Positions 5,250 through 20,783 of a DNA stretch of 22,672 bases are shown here, in pieces. Position 1 is the first letter of the stretch, and each line of letters begins with the position of its first letter. A program made the translations under genes and the position numbers. The DNA is from a virus. Under the pieces are notes generated by a model. It searched no databases and had not been told where the DNA came from. It saw only the letters and a list, made by a program, of their open reading frames with translations. The stretch lies in the IMG/VR virus record IMGVR_UViG_3300034374_003314, positions 1 to 22,672 of that record; one strand, 5' to 3'.

Positions 5250-7445
5250 TCAGATGCTCTGGGTGTACGCGACAGACCAACGAACATCCAGAGCGGAGTT
5301 GTTGGATGAGATCACAAGTCTGAGTTCATCACCGGCAGACAGTGGGTTGTTGATGCCGGTGGTGGAACTGAGCGAAGAAGACACCGACACGGCCCCGGAC
5401 GGAAGAATGGAACCGGTCTGGTCCGTCAGGTCTGCCGAACAAGACCCGCTTCCAGCGATGATCTCCAAGCGGTCGATGGTCCGTGCATAGGGGACACGAA
5501 GATCGAGGTAATACGTCTTGTTTGCAGCCGTCTCGATGTGGCCCGAGTAGTTGCCGGTGATGGTGTGGGTATGGTCACCCAGAGCCACCTGAGTTGACGA
5601 GGTGCCGGTCGGGAGGAGCCCGATTGCCAGTTTGCCTGAAGTAATCTGGGTTGCGTCCAACGACAAGGCGTCGGAACCGCCGGAAGCGTGCGAAGCGGCG
5701 TGAGCGGTGGGAGTGCGGCTGTCCGTCAGGCGAGTGTCGTCACCCTTGACGACTTCCCCAACCGAAGCGTTGCCAGTCGCGGCGACATTGAGGGAAGCCG
5801 AGGTTCCCGCATCGGTGACCTCACTGAGCGTGTGGTTGTGTGTCGTGGGAGTTCGGGCATCCGTCAGGCGAGTGTCGTCACCCTTGACGACTTCCCCAAC
5901 CGCAGCGTTTCCAGTAGCGGCGACATTGAGGGAAGCCGAAGTTCCCGCATCGGTGACCTGACTGAGCGTGTGGGTGTGTGCCGTGGGAGTTCGGGCATCC
6001 GTCAGGCGAGTGTCGGTGCCTAGGACAACCTCAGTGGTCGAGGCGTCACCCGATGCGGGCACGTTCTTGCTGGCAGCGGTACCCGCATCCGAGATGGCAC
6101 TCAGGGTGTGCGTGTGGTTGCCTTGGGCAATCGTTCCTGCCGTTGTGCCAAACGTCGGGGCGACGGTATAGGTTCCACCCGCCCCGCCGTCAGTGGTCGT
6201 GAACGCGGTCGCGTTGAAAGTAAGCACCCGTTCGTCACTCAGGTCCCCATCAGCAGCAAGCGTCAAGTATTGGGCGTCGGTGGGGGCACCTCCCGACCCT
6301 TGGCCGGAAGTCTGGTCTGTGCCGGGCTCCCACAGGCCGCTTGTCCCGTTGTATTTCAGAACATCTCCGGTGGACGGAGTTGTCGAAGACACGTTGCTCA
6401 GATCATCGAGATCCACGGGGATCGTGGGCTTGTTCAGAATCTGGGAGTCACCGCTGACCGCGTTCCAGTCAGCGTTGACGTTCACCTCTGCACCCGCAGC
6501 GATTCCGTCCAACTTGCTCTTGTCGGTCGTGGACATCAGACCAGCAGTGGACACGGTGGCGACCGGTGCCTTGACCGCCAGATCGTTGTAGGAACCCGAA
6601 GTCGCCACCGTGGATAGGCTGGGCGTTCCCGACAGATCTGAATAGGAACCCGAAGTCGCAACGGTGGACAGAGAAGGCGTTCCCGTCAGGTCTGAATAGG
6701 AACCTGAAGTCGCCACCGTGGACAGGCTAGGCGTTCCCGTAAGGTCTGAATAGGAACCTGAAGTCGCAACGGTGGACAGGCTGGGCGTTCCCGACAGATC
6801 TGAATAGGAACCCGTGGAAGCGACCGTAACCAAACCGAGGGCTGACTTCTGGGCCGAGGTGGTGGAGGCCGTGATCAGGTCCTTGCCGACCGTGGTGACA
6901 TCGCCACCCATCTTGGTGCTGGTGATGACACTACTGCGGACAGTCAGCACCGAGCCTTGGTTGCTGACATCGATGTCCCCGTAAGTCCCATCAGAGAGAC
7001 CCCCGCCCGGTCCCGAAGCGGACACGGCGGCTACCCAAGACGACGTATGGGAATCCCATGTGAGGACTCTTCCCTCGGCCTTCTGGTCAGCGGGCGGGTC
7101 CTTGATGGAGAAGTCTTCGGTTTCTTGGGAGATGAACAGCGCTTGAAGGTGAGCATTGTTCAGGTCATCTGGCCTGACAATCGCACCGGAAGTGAACGAG
7201 ACTTCCCTGCCGGATACGGTGATGGGAGTCTCTCGACGGATTCGGACAAACGCCCCGGAACCCAAAGCGGTACCGAAGGTGATTTCCTTCGTCACTTCGT
7301 TGACGGTGTAGTCCCCGGTGGACTGGAGGACATCATCGACATAGACCTTGATGTGGTCGATGGACAAGTACCCATCGATGGCGGCGAAGGAGAATGGCCC
7401 GGTTGTCGATGAGGCGGTGGTGTGGTCTTGGTATGAATAGGCCAT
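5250..7445 (-). CDS. 17: T7-type tail fibre protein with HxH and shaft repeats
   Basis: Tail fibre that attaches to the nozzle/adaptor and projects toward the host. The first ~110 residues (IDGYLSIDHIKVYVDDVLQS through the FVRIRRETP motif) match the T7 gp17 N-terminal anchor domain. The rest differs from T7. A GSYSDL(T/S)GTPSLSTVATS repeat of 18 aa follows (about 210-290), then a middle domain. From about 440 a 46-aa repeat with HTLSxVTDAGTSAS, NVAATGN and TRLTDARTPT recurs. HxH motifs occur at 444-446, 490-492, 536-538 and 625-627. The C-terminal ~100 residues form a different Ser/Thr-rich domain that may hand over to the adhesin encoded next. 731 aa versus 553 for T7 gp17. Good upstream site (GAGGTAA). 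Confidence 0.93.
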   Translation of the reverse strand: MAYSYQDHTTASSTTGPFSFAAIDGYLSIDHIKVYVDDVLQSTGDYTVNEVTKEITFGTALGSGAFVRIRRETPITVSGREVSFTSGAIVRPDDLNNAHLQALFISQETEDFSIKDPPADQKAEGRVLTWDSHTSSWVAAVSASGPGGGLSDGTYGDIDVSNQGSVLTVRSSVITSTKMGGDVTTVGKDLITASTTSAQKSALGLVTVASTGSYSDLSGTPSLSTVATSGSYSDLTGTPSLSTVATSGSYSDLTGTPSLSTVATSGSYSDLSGTPSLSTVATSGSYNDLAVKAPVATVSTAGLMSTTDKSKLDGIAAGAEVNVNADWNAVSGDSQILNKPTIPVDLDDLSNVSSTTPSTGDVLKYNGTSGLWEPGTDQTSGQGSGGAPTDAQYLTLAADGDLSDERVLTFNATAFTTTDGGAGGTYTVAPTFGTTAGTIAQGNHTHTLSAISDAGTAASKNVPASGDASTTEVVLGTDTRLTDARTPTAHTHTLSQVTDAGTSASLNVAATGNAAVGEVVKGDDTRLTDARTPTTHNHTLSEVTDAGTSASLNVAATGNASVGEVVKGDDTRLTDSRTPTAHAASHASGGSDALSLDATQITSGKLAIGLLPTGTSSTQVALGDHTHTITGNYSGHIETAANKTYYLDLRVPYARTIDRLEIIAGSGSCSADLTDQTGSILPSGAVSVSSSLSSTTGINNPLSAGDELRLVISSNNSALDVRWSVAYTQSI
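5725..6138 (-). repeat. Three 138-bp coding repeats in the fibre gene
   Basis: The string gtcaggcgag recurs at 5725, 5863 and 6001, exactly 138 bp apart. Surrounding sequence is also duplicated, including tcgtcacccttgacgacttc in the first two copies. Each unit encodes 46 residues with one HxH motif and a TDAGTSASLNVAATGN-type segment. The first two copies are closer to each other than to the third, suggesting stepwise duplication. Such units probably lengthen the trimeric fibre shaft, with the HxH histidines facing its axis. Confidence 0.85.
6592..6807 (-). repeat. Four tandem 54-bp coding repeats in the fibre gene
   Basis: Units lie at 6592-6645, 6646-6699, 6700-6753 and 6754-6807, each beginning gaacc(c/t)gaagtcgc on the plus strand and encoding an 18-aa GSYSDL(T/S)GTPSLSTVATS-type unit. 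A partial fifth follows at 6808. Units 1 and 3 share gtcgccaccg; units 2 and 4 share gtcgcaacgg; but units 1 and 4 share the second half (gggcgttcccgacagatctg). The repeats are in frame and translated, so this is not a CRISPR array. Confidence 0.9.
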
Positions 7446-7449
7446 CCTG

Positions 7450-10400
7450 TTACCTCACAAGATTCATGAGTTCATCGGCACGCTGGCCGGAAAGAAGAGC
7501 AGCACGACGGGCCTGATCGACCCGGTAGACTTCCCGGAGAGCCGAGGACTCCTTGATCATCTGGTCGAAAGCCCTTTCCCGGAACCGGGAGATGATCCGT
7601 CTAAGAATTCGGACCCGGGGCGACTTATACATATCCGTGGACACCGGGGACAGATTTTGATACTGCCGGGTGGCCATCGTTTTCTCCATATACTTCCGTA
7701 GAGTCAACCCCCCGATGGTCACCTCTCCGTGCAACTGGAGCCACCGGTCATACGCCTGCTGGCCGCTGTCGGTGGTGTATTCCCGGAGATCGATCCCGCC
7801 CCCGCGTTGTGGGTTGGGGCTGTCGAACGGGTGATCCAGACGGCGGAGTTCGGCCGCAACCTTGTCGCTGTTCACCTCGGAATACTCGAACGGGGAGAAC
7901 ATGGTCAACGGGCTGTCCTCGGCGACGACATCACCGGCAGAGAGCAGGCCTCTTCGATTGCGCCTGACCGGCTCCCCAAACAGGTCTCGGCGTGGCGGGA
8001 GTTCATTGGCGACCCCGGGGATCTTGGACTTGATCGAATCCAACACGCTGTTGATCTCCCGGTAAAGAGGCTCGTCTTCAGCAAAACCCGTGGACTGCCC
8101 GAGCGCACTGCTGAACGGGACCATCGAGCCGACAAAACTGTTGACAAACGTCTGGCCGTACTGCTTCGGGTTGGACACGGCGTTGGAGAAGTTCGTCAGT
8201 CCTGTCAGGTACGTCTTGTTTGTGATGTTCCGCGCGATGGCGTAGACCAAAGTGTATAGAATGTTGTCTACACTTCCACGGTCTTGTTCCGACCCGTGCA
8301 TATCGAGATCGTTGTTCAGTTCGATTGCGTCAGCCACGATGCCGAGGATCGACGCAAATGGGTCAAACCGCCTATACGAATAGTAGGTGTTCCCGATTCG
8401 GATCGAATACGGACGCCACCCGCTGGATTCCCAAAGTTCCCTTCGATCCCTCTCAATGGGTCCACCGCCCGTAATTATCTCGGCCGATGCACCGGAAACG
8501 ACAAAACTCATGAAGCCGAGGCTCATCGAGAACCGGCCGATGAGGTCCGCCTTTTGAGACGGATCGATGAGATTCCGTTCGGCATCCTTCCATAGACGCC
8601 TGCTGTACGGAAGGTTGACCCCGGGGATACGCTCCAGCGTGAAGTTCAGCAGGTTCGTTGGGGTTCGGATGAACGGGAGCAGGAACCGCATGGGCGGGAC
8701 GCTTTCCGCAACCTTCTGGAACGCAGAAGCGACCTTGTTCGGGAACCCGTATTCAGGGTCCAACGGAGTAGTGAAGGTCGAGTACCGGGCATCGTTTACG
8801 GCCCGCTGGGAAATCAGGCCCAGTTCGGGGTCCCAGTTGTTGGGGTCCCGCATGTACCTGACAACGAACTTGTTCCGCTGCATGGTGGTCAGGCCACGCT
8901 TGGATGCCTCGGCATGGGCCCGACGAAGTATTTCCTTTTCGGTGTAGGCCCGGCCGTCTTCCGTCATGGCCTCGAACTTCTGGCTGGACCACCTCGCGGC
9001 AGCGTCAGGGTCTCCCCCAAACCGGCGGATTCCCTCCATCTGCAATTCGGTTTGGATTCGAGACCGGTAGTTCAACTGCTTGAAGAACTCGTCCTCGGCC
9101 GCAAGAAGGCGGGTTGGGAGGTTCAAGAACTTCCCGATCCAGTCAACAGCCGCCCCTCCTCCTAGATTCGCGGAGGAGATGGAACGGGAAGTGCCCGGGA
9201 GTTCCGCAAGGCCGGACGATCGCGTTCCCGCTTCGAGAATGTTTTCGTCTTCGGAGAACGCCATCCGTGCCAGACGGATGGAGTCGGTGAACTGATTCGC
9301 CATGGCCAAGTAACGGCCAAACATATTGACGTATGCCGCCCCCATTTCCCCACGGATTGCGTGGCCGAGGCCCCTCTCAAAGGGAACCCAGAGCGTGGAC
9401 AGCATGTTCGAGGTCATGTTCACCGCATGGGTGACGGGTCCACTGAGAATGGAGTTCATCCAGTATTCAATAAGCGATTGGCTCCACTTGGAAGCACCAC
9501 GGATATATTTGGCACCGTTCTCGGCACCGCCAAGGGCCTGTGCGGCCGCAAACCTTCGCATGTCCGCAACGATCGCATTGCGTCCCCCCGCTTCCTGAAC
9601 CGCCTGCTGAATGACCCGGCCACGGACCTCGGCGGGAGAGGCGCTCGGGATTCGGGCCTCGACCGCAGGCTGTTGGGGAACGGGAGCCGGGGCCTCCGCT
9701 TCGGCCTCAGGGGCTCGAACAGAAGTCTCTTCCGCTGCCGCTGTCGGGGCCGGTTCCTCGGTCGGACGGGCGGCCGCCTCGTCGGGGACTTCCCGGGGGC
9801 CTTCTGCCTGAACTTCACGGACAGGGCGGGTTTGGGGCCGCATCTGGCTGGGATCGGCTTCCCGGGGCAGCGGCGGGAACAGAACAGAAGACCCACGGTT
9901 GGGGTTGCCCGTGTGGGTGATCCGCTGTTCGCCGAGGAGGCGACCGATCTCGGTCTGCTGGGCCCGGATGTCATACATCATCTGCTCGACGATCCGACGC
10001 CCACGGAGGTATTCGTAGATTTCGTTTCCGTCAGCCAGATCGCCCTTCTTGGCGATCTCGTACGTTCGAGCCGAAACGTCGGACACAAGACGACGCATGG
10101 CCTGCAACTTGTAGCCGATCTGCCGAAGGGCCGTGATGTCCTTCGTGGCGTCCAAGGCTTCTCGGATGTTTGCCGACGATCGATTGCCAACGACGCTTGC
10201 AAGAGCCGTGTAGTCGTCGAAGGACTGGGCAACGACTTCGGTGTGGGACAAAGGCACGAACTCATCGATGTTCGTGTAGTCCTCGATCATTTCCTTGATG
10301 TATGCCGACACATCGGGATTGGACGAGAACCGGTCCCAGTTGGCGGCACCGTACGGATCTTCGATTCCGCCGCTGCCCGCAGGCGTTCCCAGTCGGGCGG

Positions 10401-13400
10401 GGTTCGGGCCCATGGAGGGCTTCGGCGGGAACTCTCGATCGGGGCCGTATGCGGGGGCACTCTTGAGAAGCGAAGGCCCGCCGATGCGTCCTGCCGTGAC
10501 ACCGGCAATCTCAACGTCAGGGCCACGGTTCAGCAACTTGTCGAGAACCTTGGCCACCTCCGGGTCAATCCCGTCGATGACCCCTTCGGAAGCATCGAGA
10601 TCGTTGAAGACGTTCCTCAGCCACAACTTGATCTTCATGAACAGATCCCGGTATCCACCAGACGGGACATCCCCCGTTCGGAGGTACCGGATCAGCGTGT
10701 TGGTGAATCGCTCTTCCGACTCGATCGACCAGACCCACCGGTTGTCCGTGGGGTCCCGTGACGCGCCCATGGCAGAGGCGATCTTGTCGATGTCGCTGTC
10801 TGTGATGCCCAGACGGGAAGAGGTAGGAACGCTTTCGCTGAACAGGAACCGCCGGGCAACGTGGCCGAGTTCGTGGACAGCGGTGCCGAAGTCCGCGTTC
10901 CGAAGACCCCCGATGATGGCGTCTCCGGTTTCCGCAAACAAGGCGAACCCGACTGCCTGCCCTTCCACGGTTTCCCGAAGAAGGTTTGGGTTGGCCCTTC
11001 CATACGGGGCAGCAGCAAGACGGCCGCTTCGGAGACGGCGGCCAAGAACCTCCTTGTCGGCGAACTCGAACCCACGGCGTTCCGCCTCGTCCCTCAGCAT
11101 GCCCGCAGGAGGAAGATTCTGACGGCGGCGGGTATCGGCCTGTCCCTTGTCGAACTCCCTCAGCCAGTCATAGGAGAACTCGTCTGACGCCTTCGTCAGT
11201 CCACGGGCTCTTCGGGAGTCGATGAGGACGGAGTGGGCTCCCTGTCCCCGGCTTGCCCCGACTCTCTCGACTGCCGCTTCAAATGCTGCTCGATCTGAAA
11301 CAAGCGAACTGGGTCGTGTACCAGCCCCCTGTAGTCGGGTCCTAACACGGGTTCGGATCTCCTCAAGGACTGAGACAATACTGTCAACGCTAGATCGGTC
11401 ATCCGTGAGGAACGGTTTGATGGCATTCTGAATCCTTTCGTTGAGGAACACTTCGCTCAGGTCCCAAACCTTGCGGATGTCCTGTGCGGAGAACTTCCTG
11501 AGAATCTGGTCCAAGGGGACATTCTCAGCCTTCAGGGCAATGATGGAGACGATGGAGCCCCAGACCCGCTCCTGCACTTCATAGGGCTTCATCCCCATCG
11601 CCTTGGCGACCTTGTTGATCACCGTTGCATAGGAAGCGTAGTTGCCGGTGTTCGTCAGCCAACGCTTCTTGGCCTCCAACAGCGATTCCATGGCCTCATA
11701 GGAAACCTTTTCCTTGATCGCCTTGCCGCTTGCGTCCCGCACCGTGTTCCCATCGGCGTCCCGCTTGACCACCTCCTTGGTCTTTCGGACCATCTTGGGG
11801 ACCACAATGTCATCGGGCAGCAGGCGGGCCATCCAAGTGTCAAGGGCTTGGTTGGGGCCCTGAGCGGGCAGGACATCCCCCGCCGCAGTGACGACCTGAT
11901 CGGCACGCAGGCCCATGGAACTCCCCATGAAGCCCCGCATCTTGTTGGCGGAATCCCCGCCAAACCACCGGGGAACATCGGAGAAATCCAAGGTTCGGAA
12001 GATGTCTTCTGCGGTAACGCGATACCCGCCTTCAACCGCATCGACCGCAGCGTCGAAGAACCGCTGCATCATCAGATTGTGGACACGCATGGCGTTTGAG
12101 GCGTGGGATGCGGCAGGCATCGAACCCGTTCCCGCATCTTTTTGCAGGGAGTTCAGAAGGTTCTCCATCCGGGCGGATGACGCCTTTTGGGTCTGGCTGC
12201 CTACCCAGTTCCTGCCGTACGCCTTGTCACTGATGGTATACAGGTGTTCCTTGAGGATCTTGCTGGCCTTGGCCCGGCTGATCTTTCCATTCTTGCCCAC
12301 CGCCGCCGCAAGTTGGTCGAACATCGTTCCGGTTTCAGCAGCCGAAGCGACGGCCAGACGAAGGCCGACTTCGGTGTGGATCGGGACCTGAGTCTGCGGG
12401 CTGGTCACGGCCGAGAACATGGCGAACGACTGCATCCGCTGCGTGCCGAGGTGGTGGGTCAGCACTTCCACCATCTCGTCATACCCGCCGTGCATCGCCG
12501 CACCGGCCTCGGTCAGGGGAACGATCAGTTCCTCAAGGCGGGAAACGCCGTTGTTCCAAGACGCCACAGCCTGCTGGGCGGCCCGGTTGCTCCTGATCGA
12601 GTCCTTGAGAGCCTCGGGCATTGCGGTGACCAACGGGTGTTCGTCAATCGCACGGGCGCTGAGGCCGCCAGCCTTCAGGATCGACCGGATTCCCGCATCG
12701 ACATCGTATCGTCGGCCACGGGAGACCGGGATGGAATTGAGGAGTTCCCCAGTGGCCTTGGAATAGATATTCATGGCCTCTTCGCCCCCGACAATGCGGA
12801 GACGGGAGCGGTCGATACCCATCCGGTCGATCAGGATGTTTGCAGCCTGAGCCTCGGCAGCCTCCAGTCCAAAGGCGTCCATGAGTTCCTTTTCTTGGGA
12901 CTCACGGATGACCCGGGCCTCCATGACCATGGCCTTGGTCGGCGACACGCCGTTGTCAACGGCCTTCTTTCCGGCCCGCATGATCCGCAAACTTCCGAGC
13001 AGACCGTCAACGACCAGACCCAGACCGGCACCTTCGATGGCGTTCTTCAGGCGTCCGTTCAGTTCGCCGAGCAGCGTGTCGTCATCCCCGGCGGCCAGCC
13101 AATCCAGAACCGGGATCTCCAGTTCGGTGTGGGCCATCAGCAGTTCAGATAGACGGGCCTCATGCCCGTCCCACACGGCGAAATCACCGATGAATCCTGC
13201 CGTGGTGACCCGGGCGAACTCCTTGCCGGTACCCAAAACAGCAGCCTTGCGTCCCAACTGGGCCGCCTTGGTGAAGTCACCGGCAAGGCGGGCAGCGTTG
13301 GCCCCATTGACGGCCCCAGCAATGCTCTTGTCGATCTTGGTTGAAATCTTTCCGATCGTCCCGATCTTCCCCAACTTGGAAGCCACACCAAGACCGGGAA

Positions 13401-13698
13401 CAAACCCCGACAGGAAGTTCGAGACGCCGCTGGTGATGTCTCCACCGATCGTTCTCGATGCCTCCATCAAACCGAATCGGTCCGACACCTCATAGTCAAA
13501 CGGCAGGCCGACGAGGTTGACAAGATCCGACCCGGCCGACAGGACACCACGGGGGAGGCCCTTGACGGTGTCCATGAACGAAAACGAATAGTATTCGTCG
13601 TCGGTGGGCTCGACGCCGTCAGGGAACCGGGTGGAGAGACCGCCTGACTGGGGCGTGTCGAAAAACCCGGTCTGGGATAGAGAATCAAACAGGCTCAA
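7450..13698 (-). CDS. 16: Giant internal virion (ejection) protein, T7 gp16-like position
   Basis: By position, the equivalent of T7 gp16: an internal core protein ejected into the cell to form the DNA-entry conduit. It is 2082 aa, far longer than T7 gp16 (1318). No lytic transglycosylase motif is visible near the N-terminus. Visible parts: a Gly/hydrophobic stretch (about 90-115); H942-E-L-G-H946, a zinc-peptidase motif, with E995/E996 as possible further ligands; a Pro/Glu/Ala-rich linker (about 1273-1353); a segment at about 1400-1430 containing ILSGPVTHAVNMTSN, which I recall from large phage polyvalent-type proteins; and a hydrophobic segment (about 1716-1743). The start is TTG, with AGGAG 7 nt upstream and the previous stop 2 nt before it; no ATG occurs until residue 42. 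Homology to gp16 itself is by synteny and size, not alignment. Confidence 0.88.
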   Translation of the reverse strand: MSLFDSLSQTGFFDTPQSGGLSTRFPDGVEPTDDEYYSFSFMDTVKGLPRGVLSAGSDLVNLVGLPFDYEVSDRFGLMEASRTIGGDITSGVSNFLSGFVPGLGVASKLGKIGTIGKISTKIDKSIAGAVNGANAARLAGDFTKAAQLGRKAAVLGTGKEFARVTTAGFIGDFAVWDGHEARLSELLMAHTELEIPVLDWLAAGDDDTLLGELNGRLKNAIEGAGLGLVVDGLLGSLRIMRAGKKAVDNGVSPTKAMVMEARVIRESQEKELMDAFGLEAAEAQAANILIDRMGIDRSRLRIVGGEEAMNIYSKATGELLNSIPVSRGRRYDVDAGIRSILKAGGLSARAIDEHPLVTAMPEALKDSIRSNRAAQQAVASWNNGVSRLEELIVPLTEAGAAMHGGYDEMVEVLTHHLGTQRMQSFAMFSAVTSPQTQVPIHTEVGLRLAVASAAETGTMFDQLAAAVGKNGKISRAKASKILKEHLYTISDKAYGRNWVGSQTQKASSARMENLLNSLQKDAGTGSMPAASHASNAMRVHNLMMQRFFDAAVDAVEGGYRVTAEDIFRTLDFSDVPRWFGGDSANKMRGFMGSSMGLRADQVVTAAGDVLPAQGPNQALDTWMARLLPDDIVVPKMVRKTKEVVKRDADGNTVRDASGKAIKEKVSYEAMESLLEAKKRWLTNTGNYASYATVINKVAKAMGMKPYEVQERVWGSIVSIIALKAENVPLDQILRKFSAQDIRKVWDLSEVFLNERIQNAIKPFLTDDRSSVDSIVSVLEEIRTRVRTRLQGAGTRPSSLVSDRAAFEAAVERVGASRGQGAHSVLIDSRRARGLTKASDEFSYDWLREFDKGQADTRRRQNLPPAGMLRDEAERRGFEFADKEVLGRRLRSGRLAAAPYGRANPNLLRETVEGQAVGFALFAETGDAIIGGLRNADFGTAVHELGHVARRFLFSESVPTSSRLGITDSDIDKIASAMGASRDPTDNRWVWSIESEERFTNTLIRYLRTGDVPSGGYRDLFMKIKLWLRNVFNDLDASEGVIDGIDPEVAKVLDKLLNRGPDVEIAGVTAGRIGGPSLLKSAPAYGPDREFPPKPSMGPNPARLGTPAGSGGIEDPYGAANWDRFSSNPDVSAYIKEMIEDYTNIDEFVPLSHTEVVAQSFDDYTALASVVGNRSSANIREALDATKDITALRQIGYKLQAMRRLVSDVSARTYEIAKKGDLADGNEIYEYLRGRRIVEQMMYDIRAQQTEIGRLLGEQRITHTGNPNRGSSVLFPPLPREADPSQMRPQTRPVREVQAEGPREVPDEAAARPTEEPAPTAAAEETSVRAPEAEAEAPAPVPQQPAVEARIPSASPAEVRGRVIQQAVQEAGGRNAIVADMRRFAAAQALGGAENGAKYIRGASKWSQSLIEYWMNSILSGPVTHAVNMTSNMLSTLWVPFERGLGHAIRGEMGAAYVNMFGRYLAMANQFTDSIRLARMAFSEDENILEAGTRSSGLAELPGTSRSISSANLGGGAAVDWIGKFLNLPTRLLAAEDEFFKQLNYRSRIQTELQMEGIRRFGGDPDAAARWSSQKFEAMTEDGRAYTEKEILRRAHAEASKRGLTTMQRNKFVVRYMRDPNNWDPELGLISQRAVNDARYSTFTTPLDPEYGFPNKVASAFQKVAESVPPMRFLLPFIRTPTNLLNFTLERIPGVNLPYSRRLWKDAERNLIDPSQKADLIGRFSMSLGFMSFVVSGASAEIITGGGPIERDRRELWESSGWRPYSIRIGNTYYSYRRFDPFASILGIVADAIELNNDLDMHGSEQDRGSVDNILYTLVYAIARNITNKTYLTGLTNFSNAVSNPKQYGQTFVNSFVGSMVPFSSALGQSTGFAEDEPLYREINSVLDSIKSKIPGVANELPPRRDLFGEPVRRNRRGLLSAGDVVAEDSPLTMFSPFEYSEVNSDKVAAELRRLDHPFDSPNPQRGGGIDLREYTTDSGQQAYDRWLQLHGEVTIGGLTLRKYMEKTMATRQYQNLSPVSTDMYKSPRVRILRRIISRFRERAFDQMIKESSALREVYRVDQARRAALLSGQRADELMNLVR

Positions 13699-13700
13699 AG

Positions 13701-16445
13701 TCAGTCTCCTAGATTCTGAACAGTCATGCCGCCGATCGTGGCCGTGGCTCGTCTTCGCGGTCCCACAAAGGCATCGTTGCCGGAACGTCGAAGCGGAATC
13801 AGGCTTCTTTGGGACCTGAAGACGACCTCGGGGGTGATTCCCGAAACCCCACGCCCCAAGCCCATGACGAGGGCGAACTTCCCTGATTTGCTGGTGAGGA
13901 ACTCGTTATAAGCCGTGTTCAGTTCCGCCTCATTTCGGAAGAACAGGTGAACACGGGGATCAACGGATGTATCTCTTTTTGAGTGGACCCCGTAGAATCG
14001 GACCCCTTCCGCTGTCTCGTAGTATTCGTTTCCGTTGTCGTCAGTGTCACGGGGCACCAGTTCCGATTCAGACCAGCCGCCCCGGTCTTCGGTAAGAATG
14101 CCTTTGCCTGCTAGGTAGTCCAGAGTGGACTTCCTGTCCAATTCCCAAACAACCCGTCTAGGTCTAAACCGCTCGGGTGGGCCAAAACCTTGGGACATTT
14201 CTACCCCGTCTACGGTAAACCTGAGAGTTCCTGCGGGGTACTGGGTATTGAAGCGGGGATCTAGGTCGGCAGGGAGTTGCCGAACTCCCCCCAATTCAAT
14301 GATCGAATCCTGAAACTCAGCAGTTCTGTTGAGAAACTCATCCCGAGCGGCGACCAAACTCTCGTCGTGTCGGTCCGTCAGGCTGCCTGATTTCTCGGCC
14401 TCTTTGTAGATGCCGATGACGCTGCGGTACTTGGAAAAGGAATCGTAGAGGTCGCTGTTGAAGAAGAACCAACCGTCTCCAGCATTTCCACGCTGGCCTC
14501 CGATTGCCCAATCCGTTGACTCCAAAGAGACGGAATCGTTACCGATCGCGGGGGGTGGCGGGGCCTCCGATCCCGGGAGCGGCTGGACTCCGGTCAGGGC
14601 ATTGATGAACCGGTTTTGGTATTCAAGTGCGGTAGTGCGATTTCCCAACCAATCTGCAAGGTCCTTTGGGGTAGTTTCTGGACCTTCAGATGCCAGAAAC
14701 TCCCTCACCATATCCTGTGCCGTCGCGAACGCCGAAGAATCGAGATCGAGTTGACGCAGTGCCCGATCTTCCGGGTCGCCCACTTCATCTGCCATCACAT
14801 TCTCAATCATCCCGCTTGCGAATCCCACAAGAACGTCTTCTGCCCTGCGGACACTCCGAGTCATCGCCGCACGCCTCATGTCTTGGAAGGAGTCCCCCTG
14901 CAAAACCTCGGAAATTGCGGTGTCACTGGCCTGACTGACAGCCTCTCTTGCCATGGTTTTACGGGTATTGGAGTTCCCGTTGACATAGTCGGGATTATTT
15001 CGGAGTCCATCGAAGAGGCGTTCAACGTGTCCGTTGAACACTTCGCGGTACTGTCCCGCTGCTGCTTGACGCTCGGGCGGCTCCAAGCCGAAGTTGACTC
15101 CTCTGTTGGCGATTTCCGAAACAGAGGAAATAAGTCTATCCTCAATGTATGTCCCCACTTCAGGATATCTGCGTGGGGAGAGATTCAAAGACTCGGTCAA
15201 TTCCCCCAACTGGTCTTGACTCAGTTGGACAAGGAGTTCTGCGGGAACATCGGACAGTTCACCAAACTCCCCTTGTGAGACGGCTTGCATCAATTCATCG
15301 AACCGGTCTGCTGAGATGGGACCGCTGGCAAGACGAGAGTTGTAGTTGTCGAAAAGGGACGTAAGACGGACCGCTACGTCTGCGGCTTCAGACGGAGTAA
15401 GTCCGGTCACCTCAGCCACAAAATCGATGTATTCCGACTGGTTGATGGGCTGACCCGCCCGCTTGCTGAGGGCTTGAAAAATAGGACCCCTGTACCTTTC
15501 CGCCAGACGCTCAGCGGTCCTTGACGGGTCATCCAAGCGGGATTCGATCTGGTTCAGCAGTGTTTCATATTCCACAACGACCTCTGGGGAAAGAGGCGGC
15601 CTGCCGTATTCTTCCGGGTTGACGACTTCCGAAATCAACGCCTGCAAACGCCCAAGTTCCCCATCGCTGGTGTTCGGGTCGCTGAGCAACGATCCCGCAT
15701 ACTTCGCCAAGCCCATGTAAAACTGCCTCTGGCCTGACGGGTCCATGCCGCTGCGTCTGAGTTCGTCTGTGGCCCGGAACTGGAACTCACGGATTTGATC
15801 CACGGTCACATCCGGGTCCGAAATCAAACCGATTATCTTGCTATACAGTTCGGAAGAGATCGCGTCGTCGTTCTTCTCGCGGAGACGGGCGGCCAAGATC
15901 CTATCGTTTTCCGTCTGGTAACGGGCGATGATCTGGGACTGGACGGAATTGAAACCTCGACGGACGTACGGGTCGGAGCCGACATCCACCCCGTTGATGA
16001 TCTCCTGAAGCATCTTGTCCCGGGCCGCCTGCGTGATCGGGTTCCCGTTGTCGTCGGTCAGCCGAGTCAGGCGGTCCCTGTTCGCTTCGAGAGCGGAAGA
16101 CAACTGCTGGCCTTTGACAAGGCGACCGAGAGATTCCCGAAACGCAATCTGACGGAGGGGGCCGGGAAGGTTCTGCTCGTCGAACCACTTGTTGGCGGCT
16201 GTCATGTCCGTGATGCCCTTGGGCATCTCCACGGCGGCCTCGGCACCCTCACGGAACTCCTTGTTCCCCATGGTGGCACTTAGGGACATCAGAACCGGGG
16301 AAAGACCGGACAGTGCCCGGGCCACCTGCATCCCCTGTGACGCCTCAAGAGTGGCCAGTTGAGCCAGCGGTGAAACGTCAAAATATGTCGAGACGGGAGC
16401 GGCGGTTGGCCGTGTGATTCTCAACGGTTCAAAGTTCTTAGCCAT
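13701..16445 (-). CDS. 15: Internal virion protein, T7 gp15-like position
   Basis: A 914-aa protein between the gp14-like and gp16-like genes, the place of T7 gp15 (747 aa). In T7 this protein helps form the periplasmic tunnel for DNA entry. The sequence is mostly helical in appearance, with long charged stretches (for example residues 120-260) and few cysteines. The opening region contains LAQLATLEASQGMQVARALS, typical of internal core proteins that begin with a short extended segment and a helix. The C-terminal ~200 residues are beta-rich, with many Arg and aromatic residues (FYGVHSKRDTSVDPRVHLFF). I saw no catalytic motif or clear membrane span. Its stop lies 2 nt before the next start and its last codons provide that gene's SD. 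Assignment relies on order, length and composition. Confidence 0.85.
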   Translation of the reverse strand: MAKNFEPLRITRPTAAPVSTYFDVSPLAQLATLEASQGMQVARALSGLSPVLMSLSATMGNKEFREGAEAAVEMPKGITDMTAANKWFDEQNLPGPLRQIAFRESLGRLVKGQQLSSALEANRDRLTRLTDDNGNPITQAARDKMLQEIINGVDVGSDPYVRRGFNSVQSQIIARYQTENDRILAARLREKNDDAISSELYSKIIGLISDPDVTVDQIREFQFRATDELRRSGMDPSGQRQFYMGLAKYAGSLLSDPNTSDGELGRLQALISEVVNPEEYGRPPLSPEVVVEYETLLNQIESRLDDPSRTAERLAERYRGPIFQALSKRAGQPINQSEYIDFVAEVTGLTPSEAADVAVRLTSLFDNYNSRLASGPISADRFDELMQAVSQGEFGELSDVPAELLVQLSQDQLGELTESLNLSPRRYPEVGTYIEDRLISSVSEIANRGVNFGLEPPERQAAAGQYREVFNGHVERLFDGLRNNPDYVNGNSNTRKTMAREAVSQASDTAISEVLQGDSFQDMRRAAMTRSVRRAEDVLVGFASGMIENVMADEVGDPEDRALRQLDLDSSAFATAQDMVREFLASEGPETTPKDLADWLGNRTTALEYQNRFINALTGVQPLPGSEAPPPPAIGNDSVSLESTDWAIGGQRGNAGDGWFFFNSDLYDSFSKYRSVIGIYKEAEKSGSLTDRHDESLVAARDEFLNRTAEFQDSIIELGGVRQLPADLDPRFNTQYPAGTLRFTVDGVEMSQGFGPPERFRPRRVVWELDRKSTLDYLAGKGILTEDRGGWSESELVPRDTDDNGNEYYETAEGVRFYGVHSKRDTSVDPRVHLFFRNEAELNTAYNEFLTSKSGKFALVMGLGRGVSGITPEVVFRSQRSLIPLRRSGNDAFVGPRRRATATIGGMTVQNLGD
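13706..13710 (-). promoter_or_regulatory. SD site that decides a TTG start (gp16-like)
   Basis: AGGAG on the minus strand, 7 nt before the TTG at 13698. It lies inside the last codons of the gp15-like gene. The next in-frame ATG is 41 codons on, so the TTG start is strongly favoured. Confidence 0.75.
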
Positions 16446-17507: not shown

Positions 17508-20500
17508 TCAGACCCCGAGTCGCCTGTAGCGTCCTGAGTAGGACGCTTCGATCTCTGCGCTGGTGAACTTGGACGGGTAGGGTGTGTCATTGACAAGGCT
17601 CACGTTGAACTGTTCTGTGGTCCCCATGACCGGAATACGCATTGTACCGGACTCGATGGGAGCGTTCACAAACGAACTGTTCACCGTGGAACCTCGATCA
17701 TAGACATACGAGTCCGACAGAAGGGGATTCTTGGGGGTCACCTCTGCACGGAAAGGCCCCGAGTCGTCGTACAAAACATTGATGTTCTTGACCTGAAACC
17801 GTCCCGAGCCCAAGGCCGAGTTCTGGGACCCGACCCTGAAGTAGGGCTGGGAGAACGTGTAGCGAAACTCGTAGGGATTTCCGTGGAACACCGGGGCACC
17901 GCCTGTGTCGGCCAGAGTGATTGTGGTGTTTCCGGTTGCTGGGTTGAACGACCTTTGAACTTCTTCGACTCTCTGCCCAGCGTTGGGGCCTGAAGCGTAG
18001 ACAACAGTGTCCCCGGAAATGATCGGTGAATAAGGAGTGTTGCCTCCCCCGTATGGGATAGGGACCGAACCTAGGTTTATAATCTGATTCTGGGATGAAC
18101 AACTGTTTGGGGCAAAAGTTGTGTCGAACACCGCCGCAGATTGAACACCTGTGACAAACCTGAGTTGTGCAAAAAATGTTGAAAAACTATCGGATGGGAC
18201 ATCGGAACAATAGGCCTCAATGTACCCATCCATAGACCAATCAACAACAGTTCCCGGAGGGGCTGTATCGTCATATGGTTCAACCCAAAGGAAGTTGTAG
18301 GACAACTGAAATGTCCTTCCTCCGAGAGATACAGTCTTAGGGAAACTTGAATAATAATATGTTCCCGGACCAGAAGGGTTTGGGGCAGACTGCGGTTGAA
18401 AGTCAGAGTTGAACAAGTTCACAAATAGTTCAATCGGGGCGGTATCCAGCACCATTGAAAACTGTCTGTTGACGGGATTATGGGTAGCCCGAGTTGCTGA
18501 AAACTTCAGATAAGTCCTCAGGGTTGCTCCCTTGGCAAGACTAACAAAGTCGCCCATAAGGTGAGGGTGTTCCACAACGTTTTGGGTTATTACGTCTGTG
18601 GTTTCAATTTCAGGGCCTTCATACTTTGTCAACAAAGCCGTTTGACCGGGATTTATAATCTGGGGTTCAACAACACCGTTCAGTACAAGACTAGAAACGC
18701 TGGGTGCGTCTCCAAATCTGAATAAGGCTGCCAAAGGAAAAGGGGGCCCTAAATCAACAAATCCGGGGATAGTGATTGTCCCGCCGGAAGTGTCTGAAAA
18801 ATACCGACGATTGTCCAAACGGGCAGTAATGAAACTGTCTTGGTCAACTCGGTTCTCTCTGAGATCGATCTCACGGAGACCGTAGAGACCCGTTTCAGAA
18901 GAGAAGGTGTACATGACCAGACGGGATTCGTACCAACCGCAGGAGAGAATCTCGATTCCCGGAAACGTCCACTTGGACCAAGAGGACTGGATTCGTTCGT
19001 TGTCCCGGTCGAACCACTTGTAGACATACAGGGTGGATGAATCCTGATCGGTAAGCACCGCCAAGGTCCGATCGAACGGCGAAGCCTTCATGGACTTTGG
19101 AGTGCCGTTGATGTACTTGGGGACATGAGCGGTGACCTCGGGAGCAGCGATCAGGCTGGCGTCCTGAAGGTTCACGACCATGTCCCGAACGCCCGTGTAG
19201 TTGTCCCCACGCTTGAACGGGAAGTATATCTCCTGATCCACCTGAGCAGGCATGCAGTCGGCGACCGCCTCGTACTGACCAGCAGGCTCAAGGATCACGG
19301 TTCTGGGAGTGAGCAGTTCCGTGTCGGGGGAGGTCAAGATCATCTGAGCCTTGTTGGAGAACAGGATCAGACGGTCGCCCAGCGGGATGCCGTGACGGAA
19401 CTTGGTGATCTGAGGATAGGCCGAATAGACATCGATGGGGCCGCTGTCCAAGACGGTGGTGACGGTCGTTCGGAAGAAGTTGAAGAAGTTGCCCGCTTCC
19501 GAGACCGACACCGATTCTCCTGAGAGAATCCCGAGACGGCCCTGAAACGTGAAGATGGAAGAGACTTCACCGTCAACGAAACTCGGGACCGGGTTGGAGT
19601 TGTCGTCCCCGACAGTGCGGTCGTCCCAGAAGACTTCGTTGGAGGCGATGCTCCCGTCGATCGGGGTAAAGATGAAGAACGGGTCTCCCGTGACTGGGTC
19701 GAACTTCCGAATCAGGGCATGGGGCATGGTCACCGGGTCCAGTTTGTACTGGAGACCCGGAGCGACTGTTTCAACCCAGACCCCTTCACCTGTCTCGGTC
19801 TGGATGTTGGACGAGAACCGGACATAGTAGTCGTCCTCGGGAACCTCGGGGAGACCGACGATCTTGGTGATCATCCCGTCTGGCGCAATGACCGGAAGGT
19901 CCTCGAAGGACTGGGTCTCACGGTCAACCACGCGGAGACCGTTTCCCCCAAGGCCGTCAGCGACCGAAGCACGGAAACTCTTCGTGGTGCCTGTCGTGTC
20001 GTCCAGAGTGATGTGAAGACCGTAGTCGGTTCTTGTGACCGAGAAGTCTTCAAACGCTGTTCCAGCAGAGAACTGGGATCTCAGCAACACAGCCAACTGG
20101 GCAGCGATCAGGCGGGTGTCGATGACGGAGTTGCCTGCGGGGAAATCCTCGTTATCAAGGTTCGTCTCAGCGTTCAAGTACCCATCATTATCGACCCCAG
20201 TTTCACTGGGAGTGAACGTCTTCTGAGAGATTTCGGTCGTCCCAAGGCTGTCCCCGTCTACGTCCAGAGCCTCCAGAGTGATTGTGTAGGTCGTTCCATA
20301 GTTGCCGGTCTTCACCCACACGAACGACTCGGGGTTTCGCGCGGCAACCGTATCGTTAGTCATCTGGACGGTGACGTTTCGATTGCAAACGAACGTGTAG
20401 TCCGCAATCGTGGTCAGAGACAGATCCCTTTCCAGATCATCTACACTGCCTCCCCCGAGGTAGGAATAACTACCCCCAGCGGGAAGGTTCACAGTAACCG

Positions 20501-20783
20501 AGGTGTTGTTGATCAGGTCCCATGCAGTGATGCCGTCATCCTTGAGAATGACCGCATAGGCTTCCTTGCCTTCTCCACGATCGATGATGTGGAGTTTCCC
20601 CTTGCCTTCGGCGTCTCCGTTTCCAGAGAAATCGGCCACAACCTCGGTCGGGTACCGCTTGGTCAGCGACTCTGTGGGACTGGCGTAGGCGTTGACGAGT
20701 TCCTCGCACTGGGTGAGGAACCTGACCTGAGGGGGCTGCTGAGAGACCCCGTTCAGCATGTTGGGGATGGCAATGTTGTACAT
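17508..20783 (-). CDS. 12: Tail tubular protein B (nozzle), T7 gp12-like, with large insertion
   Basis: Forms the tail nozzle below gp11; 1091 aa versus 794 for T7 gp12. Matches to T7 gp12 are visible at NGVSQQPPQVRF (near the start), ADYTFVCNRNV, YYVRF, MPHALIR, FQGRLGILSGESVSVSEAGN and FNFFRT, PIDV, HVPKYI, SWSKWTFPG, and at the end YSGRYRRLGV. About 250 residues between roughly 665 and 910 have no counterpart in T7. Their DNA is clearly less GC-rich (about 46% in 18121-18780) than the surroundings (55% or more). The insert is rich in Ser, Thr, Phe and Pro and looks beta-structured. gp11's stop abuts this start (TAAATG). The core call is secure; the insertion is the odd part. Confidence 0.95.
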   Translation of the reverse strand: MYNIAIPNMLNGVSQQPPQVRFLTQCEELVNAYASPTESLTKRYPTEVVADFSGNGDAEGKGKLHIIDRGEGKEAYAVILKDDGITAWDLINNTSVTVNLPAGGSYSYLGGGSVDDLERDLSLTTIADYTFVCNRNVTVQMTNDTVAARNPESFVWVKTGNYGTTYTITLEALDVDGDSLGTTEISQKTFTPSETGVDNDGYLNAETNLDNEDFPAGNSVIDTRLIAAQLAVLLRSQFSAGTAFEDFSVTRTDYGLHITLDDTTGTTKSFRASVADGLGGNGLRVVDRETQSFEDLPVIAPDGMITKIVGLPEVPEDDYYVRFSSNIQTETGEGVWVETVAPGLQYKLDPVTMPHALIRKFDPVTGDPFFIFTPIDGSIASNEVFWDDRTVGDDNSNPVPSFVDGEVSSIFTFQGRLGILSGESVSVSEAGNFFNFFRTTVTTVLDSGPIDVYSAYPQITKFRHGIPLGDRLILFSNKAQMILTSPDTELLTPRTVILEPAGQYEAVADCMPAQVDQEIYFPFKRGDNYTGVRDMVVNLQDASLIAAPEVTAHVPKYINGTPKSMKASPFDRTLAVLTDQDSSTLYVYKWFDRDNERIQSSWSKWTFPGIEILSCGWYESRLVMYTFSSETGLYGLREIDLRENRVDQDSFITARLDNRRYFSDTSGGTITIPGFVDLGPPFPLAALFRFGDAPSVSSLVLNGVVEPQIINPGQTALLTKYEGPEIETTDVITQNVVEHPHLMGDFVSLAKGATLRTYLKFSATRATHNPVNRQFSMVLDTAPIELFVNLFNSDFQPQSAPNPSGPGTYYYSSFPKTVSLGGRTFQLSYNFLWVEPYDDTAPPGTVVDWSMDGYIEAYCSDVPSDSFSTFFAQLRFVTGVQSAAVFDTTFAPNSCSSQNQIINLGSVPIPYGGGNTPYSPIISGDTVVYASGPNAGQRVEEVQRSFNPATGNTTITLADTGGAPVFHGNPYEFRYTFSQPYFRVGSQNSALGSGRFQVKNINVLYDDSGPFRAEVTPKNPLLSDSYVYDRGSTVNSSFVNAPIESGTMRIPVMGTTEQFNVSLVNDTPYPSKFTSAEIEASYSGRYRRLGV

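Follow-up and report, generated by a model that had tools for sequence, protein, structure and literature searches.

The window, a stretch of 22,672 nucleotides of viral DNA, encodes a 2082-aa gp16-position ejection protein of the P-SSP7, pelagiphage and roseophage type, in which a variable slot lies between conserved N- and C-terminal parts. The slot holds a cargo region and a domain that, by predicted fold and ligand pattern, is a zincin-type metallopeptidase with predicted zinc binding and activity. Comparison of related loci indicates that this central slot swaps different enzyme domains among related phages. Our preferred reading, at a probability of about 0.5, is that of a polyvalent-type ejection protein of an autographivirus-like podophage, whose zincin would cleave its own chain and free the slot cargo after injection. 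The features of the gene are collected in the table.

Table. Features of the gp16-position gene of the window; residues refer to the 2082-aa translation.
Feature	Position	Strand	Basis or remark
Whole gene, gp16-position ejection protein with cargo slot	7450..13698	-	2082 aa; open reading frame and translation
N-terminal part, residues 1-300	12799..13698	-	common to gp16-position proteins; blastp and HMM matches
Cargo region, fold unassigned, mostly helical, residues 301-900	10999..12798	-	homologous to L001, L096, L108 and L097
Zincin-like metallopeptidase domain, residues ~901-1070	10489..10998	-	alignment, profiles and model
HELGH motif, residues 942-946	10861..10875	-	E943 and H946 invariant, H942 nearly so
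E996, predicted third zinc ligand in the following helix	10711..10713	-	invariant in 69 sequences
Pro/Glu/Ala-rich linker, residues ~1297-1395	9514..9810	-	composition; candidate cleavage region
Conserved C-terminal part, residues 1404-2082	7453..9489	-	tblastn, phrog_6651

The gene starts with a TTG codon preceded by AGGAG and lies in a T7-type virion module with major capsid, tail tube A and B, T7-type tail fibre and T7-type terminase genes. Profile scans and gene context gave the order MCP-TTA-TTB-gp14-gp15-2082-aa gene-fibre, and the gp14 neighbour matched PF24072 (E 1.4e-24). The gp14-gp15-gp16-fibre order together with the conserved N- and C-terminal parts places the protein at the gp16 position known from P-SSP7, pelagiphages and roseophages. 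In scans with Pfam, NCBIfam and PHROGs, the only matches of the 2082-aa protein were phrog_6651 and phrog_9880; no Pfam model reached it. A second copy of the protein, in L001, is 75% identical. Measured against L001 (for the C-terminal part also against L095), dN/dS was 0.15 in both the N- and the C-terminal part, 0.23 in the cargo and 0.20 in the zincin, so that all parts are under purifying selection. We do not favour a sequencing artefact, given the frame that is open throughout, dN/dS values of 0.15-0.23 and the second copy. An antisense open frame of 466 codons (9361-10761, plus strand) runs within the gene and is probably a by-product of base composition, not a gene.

Sequences within residues 1-300 matched the N-terminal parts of CRP-114, CRP-125, ProddE, ctgrD200 and IMG/VR relatives by blastp and HMM. 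A tblastn search with residues 1404-2082 matched 85 records of phages, which included P-SSP7 gene 16, Syn5 gene 45, pelagiphages, roseophages and Desulfovibrio phage ProddE; identity to L095 over this part is 79%. The C-terminal part is common to the window protein and the gp16-position proteins of P-SSP7, Syn5, HTVC119P, CRP-114, CRP-125 and ProddE, and the last three also share the N-terminal part and the gene order. The proteins of the Roseobacter phages CRP-114 and CRP-125 and of ProddE, however, are only 1268-1334 aa long; their slots are short and contain no zincin, and compared with CRP-114 the window protein has ~760 extra residues between its N- and C-terminal parts. In the phage-record proteins of CRP-114, CRP-125, ProddE and ctgrD200 the whole zincin domain is absent.

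In T7 gp16, a transglycosylase at the N-terminus is combined with two putative membrane regions and with a central part assigned to the cytoplasm (PMC8954989). The window protein resembles it in gene position and in the weakly hydrophobic stretches of the N- and C-terminal parts that flank a long central part, but differs in having no SLT domain and no detectable sequence homology. The initial annotation had seen no transglycosylase motif, and this holds: the SLT scan gave no match in the window protein, whereas the same library found the SLT domain of T7 gp16 at residues 15-127 with an E-value of 1.7e-31. Family profiles of the N- and C-terminal parts gave no significant match to T7 gp16, and we therefore use the name gp16-position protein. 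That label, already given in the initial annotation, is right in view of gene order and conserved parts, while homology to T7 gp16 remains unproven.

Within the slot, the HELGH motif was confirmed in the translated minus-strand gene. From its composition, a protein like this should contain 0.014 HExxH motifs; since the motif is also kept in related loci, we rejected a chance origin. E995 and E996, which had been singled out about 50 residues further on, are indeed at these positions, but the alignment identifies E996 and not E995 as the invariant third residue. Residues 902-1097 weakly matched giant proteins of phage BPP-1, Pseudomonas phage AF, Acinetobacter phage Ab9, Cobetia phage Carin1 and Xanthomonas phages, all at the same gene position as the window protein. 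Invariant in the alignment with these proteins were H942, E943, H946, E996 and a Tyr, a Gly, a Pro and a Phe. When IMG/VR was scanned with a pattern that covered the Glu segment only, so that HExxH was not selected for, 80 loci were obtained, of which 68 had HExxH and 12 had HExxxH; an HEXXXH variant of polyvalent-protein zincins has been described (Iyer et al, 2017; PMC5512222). The 69-sequence alignment behind the conservation given in the table included the EExxH rows discussed below.

The AlphaFold model of the zincin, built from the domain alignment, had a pTM of 0.70 and a core pLDDT mostly between 84 and 96 (~90). In the model, a three-stranded sheet (strands 17-22, 25-32 and 38-42) precedes the HExxH helix (48-63), which carries HELGH, and E996 lies in helix 103-119. 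In a library of predicted viral structures, the best matches included ART-PolyVal and large-polyvalent proteins with a probability of 1.0. Matches to solved structures were weak: Foldseek found none in the PDB with E <= 1e-3, the best PDB match in VIA had Z 4.6 and was to unrelated helical proteins, and a PDB sequence search with the domain profile gave nothing relevant. The lethal-factor protease domain was among the VIA rows with Z 3.8, rmsd 5.7 and 116 aligned residues, which is in the expected range and below the level that counts; a distant lethal-factor relation was likewise found for the N4 domain by Iyer et al (PMC5512222).

The domain shares with the zincin MPTase of polyvalent proteins (Iyer et al, 2017; PMC5512222) the HExxH motif with a Glu in the following helix, the three-stranded sheet, the location inside giant proteins among virion genes and, in close relatives, ART and methyltransferase partners. 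The class has been described, and the domain itself is therefore not new. What differs is its fusion into an autographivirus-type family of gp16-position ejection proteins; gp16, BPP-1 and internal virion proteins go unmentioned in the main text of Iyer et al (2017; PMC5512222). The zincin is a new member of a described class, and its presence in a slot with exchangeable content, within ejection proteins of the autographivirus type, seems to be an unreported variant: a literature search for zincins together with internal virion proteins, which was not exhaustive and had most subscription journals outside its reach, found no paper. The suggestion of a zincin-type domain in the ejection-protein position is thus supported by HELGH and E996, by the alignment with polyvalent-type proteins and by the gp16-position gene order. 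The polyvalent-like segment also suspected there is best equated with the zincin itself, given its similarity to phrog_9880, and not with the conserved C-terminal third, which belongs to the gp16-position ejection proteins.

Close parallels exist in Bordetella phage BPP-1, with its protein Bbp10, and in the equivalent proteins of AF, Ab9 and Carin1, which follow gp14-/gp15-like genes at the same position, carry the same zincin and, at 2052-2854 aa, are of similar or larger size. The three that were scanned (BPP-1, AF and Ab9) differ in having LPD22, LPD23 or PBECR domains, and none of them gave a match to either conserved gp16 part. In Rhodobacteraceae phage LS06-2018-MD07, the protein encoded at this position is 3100 aa long and includes the zincin; its gp16 N- and C-terminal parts were not detected. 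Another giant protein that is ejected, the N4 virion RNA polymerase gp50, likewise has a zincin-type domain with HExxH (PMC12633501, PMC5512222), but it carries an RNA polymerase and belongs to another phage family.

A fusion of several domains had been proposed for the window protein, and zincin and cargo region do lie between the conserved N- and C-terminal parts. The Pro/Glu-rich linker that had also been noted was located by composition and keeps the same position within the window's own clade. An AlphaFold model of residues 281-925, which span the cargo region, was not interpretable (5 sequences, pLDDT 52). Many of the best 80 C-part relatives have long inserts between the N- and C-terminal parts. 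For the slot count we took the 80 relatives most similar to the window, added four phage proteins, left out the rows of the zincin scan and removed near-duplicates, which gave 46 full-length non-redundant proteins. With a threshold of 470 aa, chosen after the data were seen, 24 of 26 long slots had an HExxH-type motif, compared with 0 of 20 shorter ones. The long slots comprised nine with the window-type zincin and HExxH, four with the same zincin and EExxH, 11 with other HExxH motifs and two with none; over all long slots together, composition predicts 0.24 HExxH motifs. In more distant relatives (L110, L128, L137, L139, L144, L156, L158, L161, L164, L166 and L172), the slot is filled by different zincin-like motifs, HELWHSLS for example, that fall outside the window zincin profile.

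Several unrelated domains in one giant chain among virion genes, as in polyvalent proteins, were found in this family: zincin and cargo in the window, an ART-PolyVal domain in L105 and a methyltransferase in L096. The ejection protein of L105 (L105:2211-10022, 2604 aa) combines the zincin with ART-PolyVal (E 3e-19) and a second motif, HExWH. Methyltransferase matches were obtained in the slots of L096 and L124, and L159 has an ART-like signature in its cargo and no zincin. The proteins of L106 and L108 are ~90% identical over most of their length and unrelated at residues ~350-750, just upstream of the zincin, which indicates at the level of sequence that the cargo was swapped and the zincin retained.

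A loss of HExxH in most close homologues had been raised in the initial annotation as a possible objection, and the outcome is mixed: close gp16 relatives that have the domain keep HExxH except for one EExxH clade of 7 contigs, whereas the phage-record proteins named above lack the domain altogether. In L098-L104 (L102 is a fragment) and L125, which come from several different metagenomes, EEITH or EEISH replaces the HELGH of the window. The clade groups with HExxH relatives of the window in the C-terminal tree, a placement compatible with a single loss, and it retains cargo and linker despite the lost first His. Its zincin is possibly a pseudo-peptidase. The existence of this sister clade shows that catalysis is neither universal nor indispensable in the lineage.

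On the preferred reading, the N- and C-terminal parts would do the entry job and the central slot would carry exchangeable cargo. By analogy with T7, the protein would probably be stored inside the phage head and ejected as infection begins; gene position and relatives annotated as internal virion protein D point to its presence in the virion and its ejection. The slot, between presumed membrane-active N- and C-terminal regions, would reach the cytoplasm as in the T7 model, and the weakly hydrophobic stretches shared with T7 gp16 suggest that it may be the cytoplasmic part. As no sequence homology with T7 gp16 was detected, this topology argument draws on gene position and weak hydropathy. The zincin could then cleave the chain it belongs to, most probably within the Pro/Glu linker or next to the cargo, and such a cut would separate the upstream cargo from the rest of the protein at the membrane.

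We favour self-processing because zincin and extra cargo co-occur almost constantly and because the zincin is retained when cargo is exchanged. The zincin is the commonest domain of polyvalent proteins, and Iyer et al proposed, from DdrB of phage P1, that zincins process their own polyvalent chain or else hit host proteins (PMC5512222). Against self-processing count the N4 virion RNA polymerase, which has a domain of the same class and is packaged uncut (PMC5512222), the EExxH clade, which keeps cargo and linker, and L159 with its ART-like cargo and no zincin; the weak PDB fold matches also weigh against the preferred reading. That the gp16-position slot is dedicated to cargo throughout, with zincins as its general release protease and the EExxH clade as a switch to uncut delivery, is a tentative extension, on which these small lytic phages would inject sets of enzymes in the manner of large phages and plasmids.

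The second option of Iyer et al (PMC5512222), in which the zincin is itself an effector that cleaves a host protein, perhaps one involved in defence, alongside further slot domains with effector roles of their own, appears to us a lesser but serious prospect. It suits the HExxH motifs outside the zincin profile that fill the same slot elsewhere, and the smallest zincin-bearing slots (L099 and L111) hold little besides the zincin; yet extra cargo almost always accompanies the motif, and a zincin kept while the adjoining cargo is swapped suits a service role towards that cargo. Rather unlikely is a domain that has lost its protease activity, or never had any, and acts as a structural or encapsidation module. 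The EExxH clade keeps its domain without the first His and the N4 region with the same domain is needed for encapsidation (PMC5512222), but in the window, L001 and most relatives all the ligands are retained across very divergent sequences. The suggestion that a peptidase takes the place of the T7 gp16 transglycosylase and opens the cell wall would fit a protein without SLT, but we consider it very improbable. It fails because the zincin-free proteins of CRP-114, CRP-125, ProddE and ctgrD200 lack SLT as well; moreover, the zincin sits in an internal slot and not at the N-terminus, its relatives are polyvalent-protein zincins, and the wall enzyme of BPP-1 resides elsewhere, in bbp11.

The ejection of proteins and genome has been studied best in T7-type phages, whose gp16 tends to be regarded purely as an entry machine. 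If gp16 relatives do have a cargo slot with a protease that releases effectors, they would give these phages an injected arsenal against early host defences, and the T7-type ejectosome would become a testable delivery device. The slot comparison yields clear pairs, L106 versus L108 and HExxH versus EExxH.

The neighbouring virion genes showed further peculiarities. Compared with L001, capsid and tail tube A are 78-82% and the gp16-position protein 75% identical, whereas the gp15-position protein (13701-16445, minus strand) has 30% identity to its counterpart and so marks an apparent mosaic boundary. The best phrog_457 stretch of the tail tube B protein (17508-20783, minus strand; 1091 aa) covers residues 5-665, which leaves a C-terminal extension of ~400 aa. 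The tail fibre protein (5250-7445, minus strand) contains several near-identical tandem copies of STVATSGSYSDLTGTPSL.
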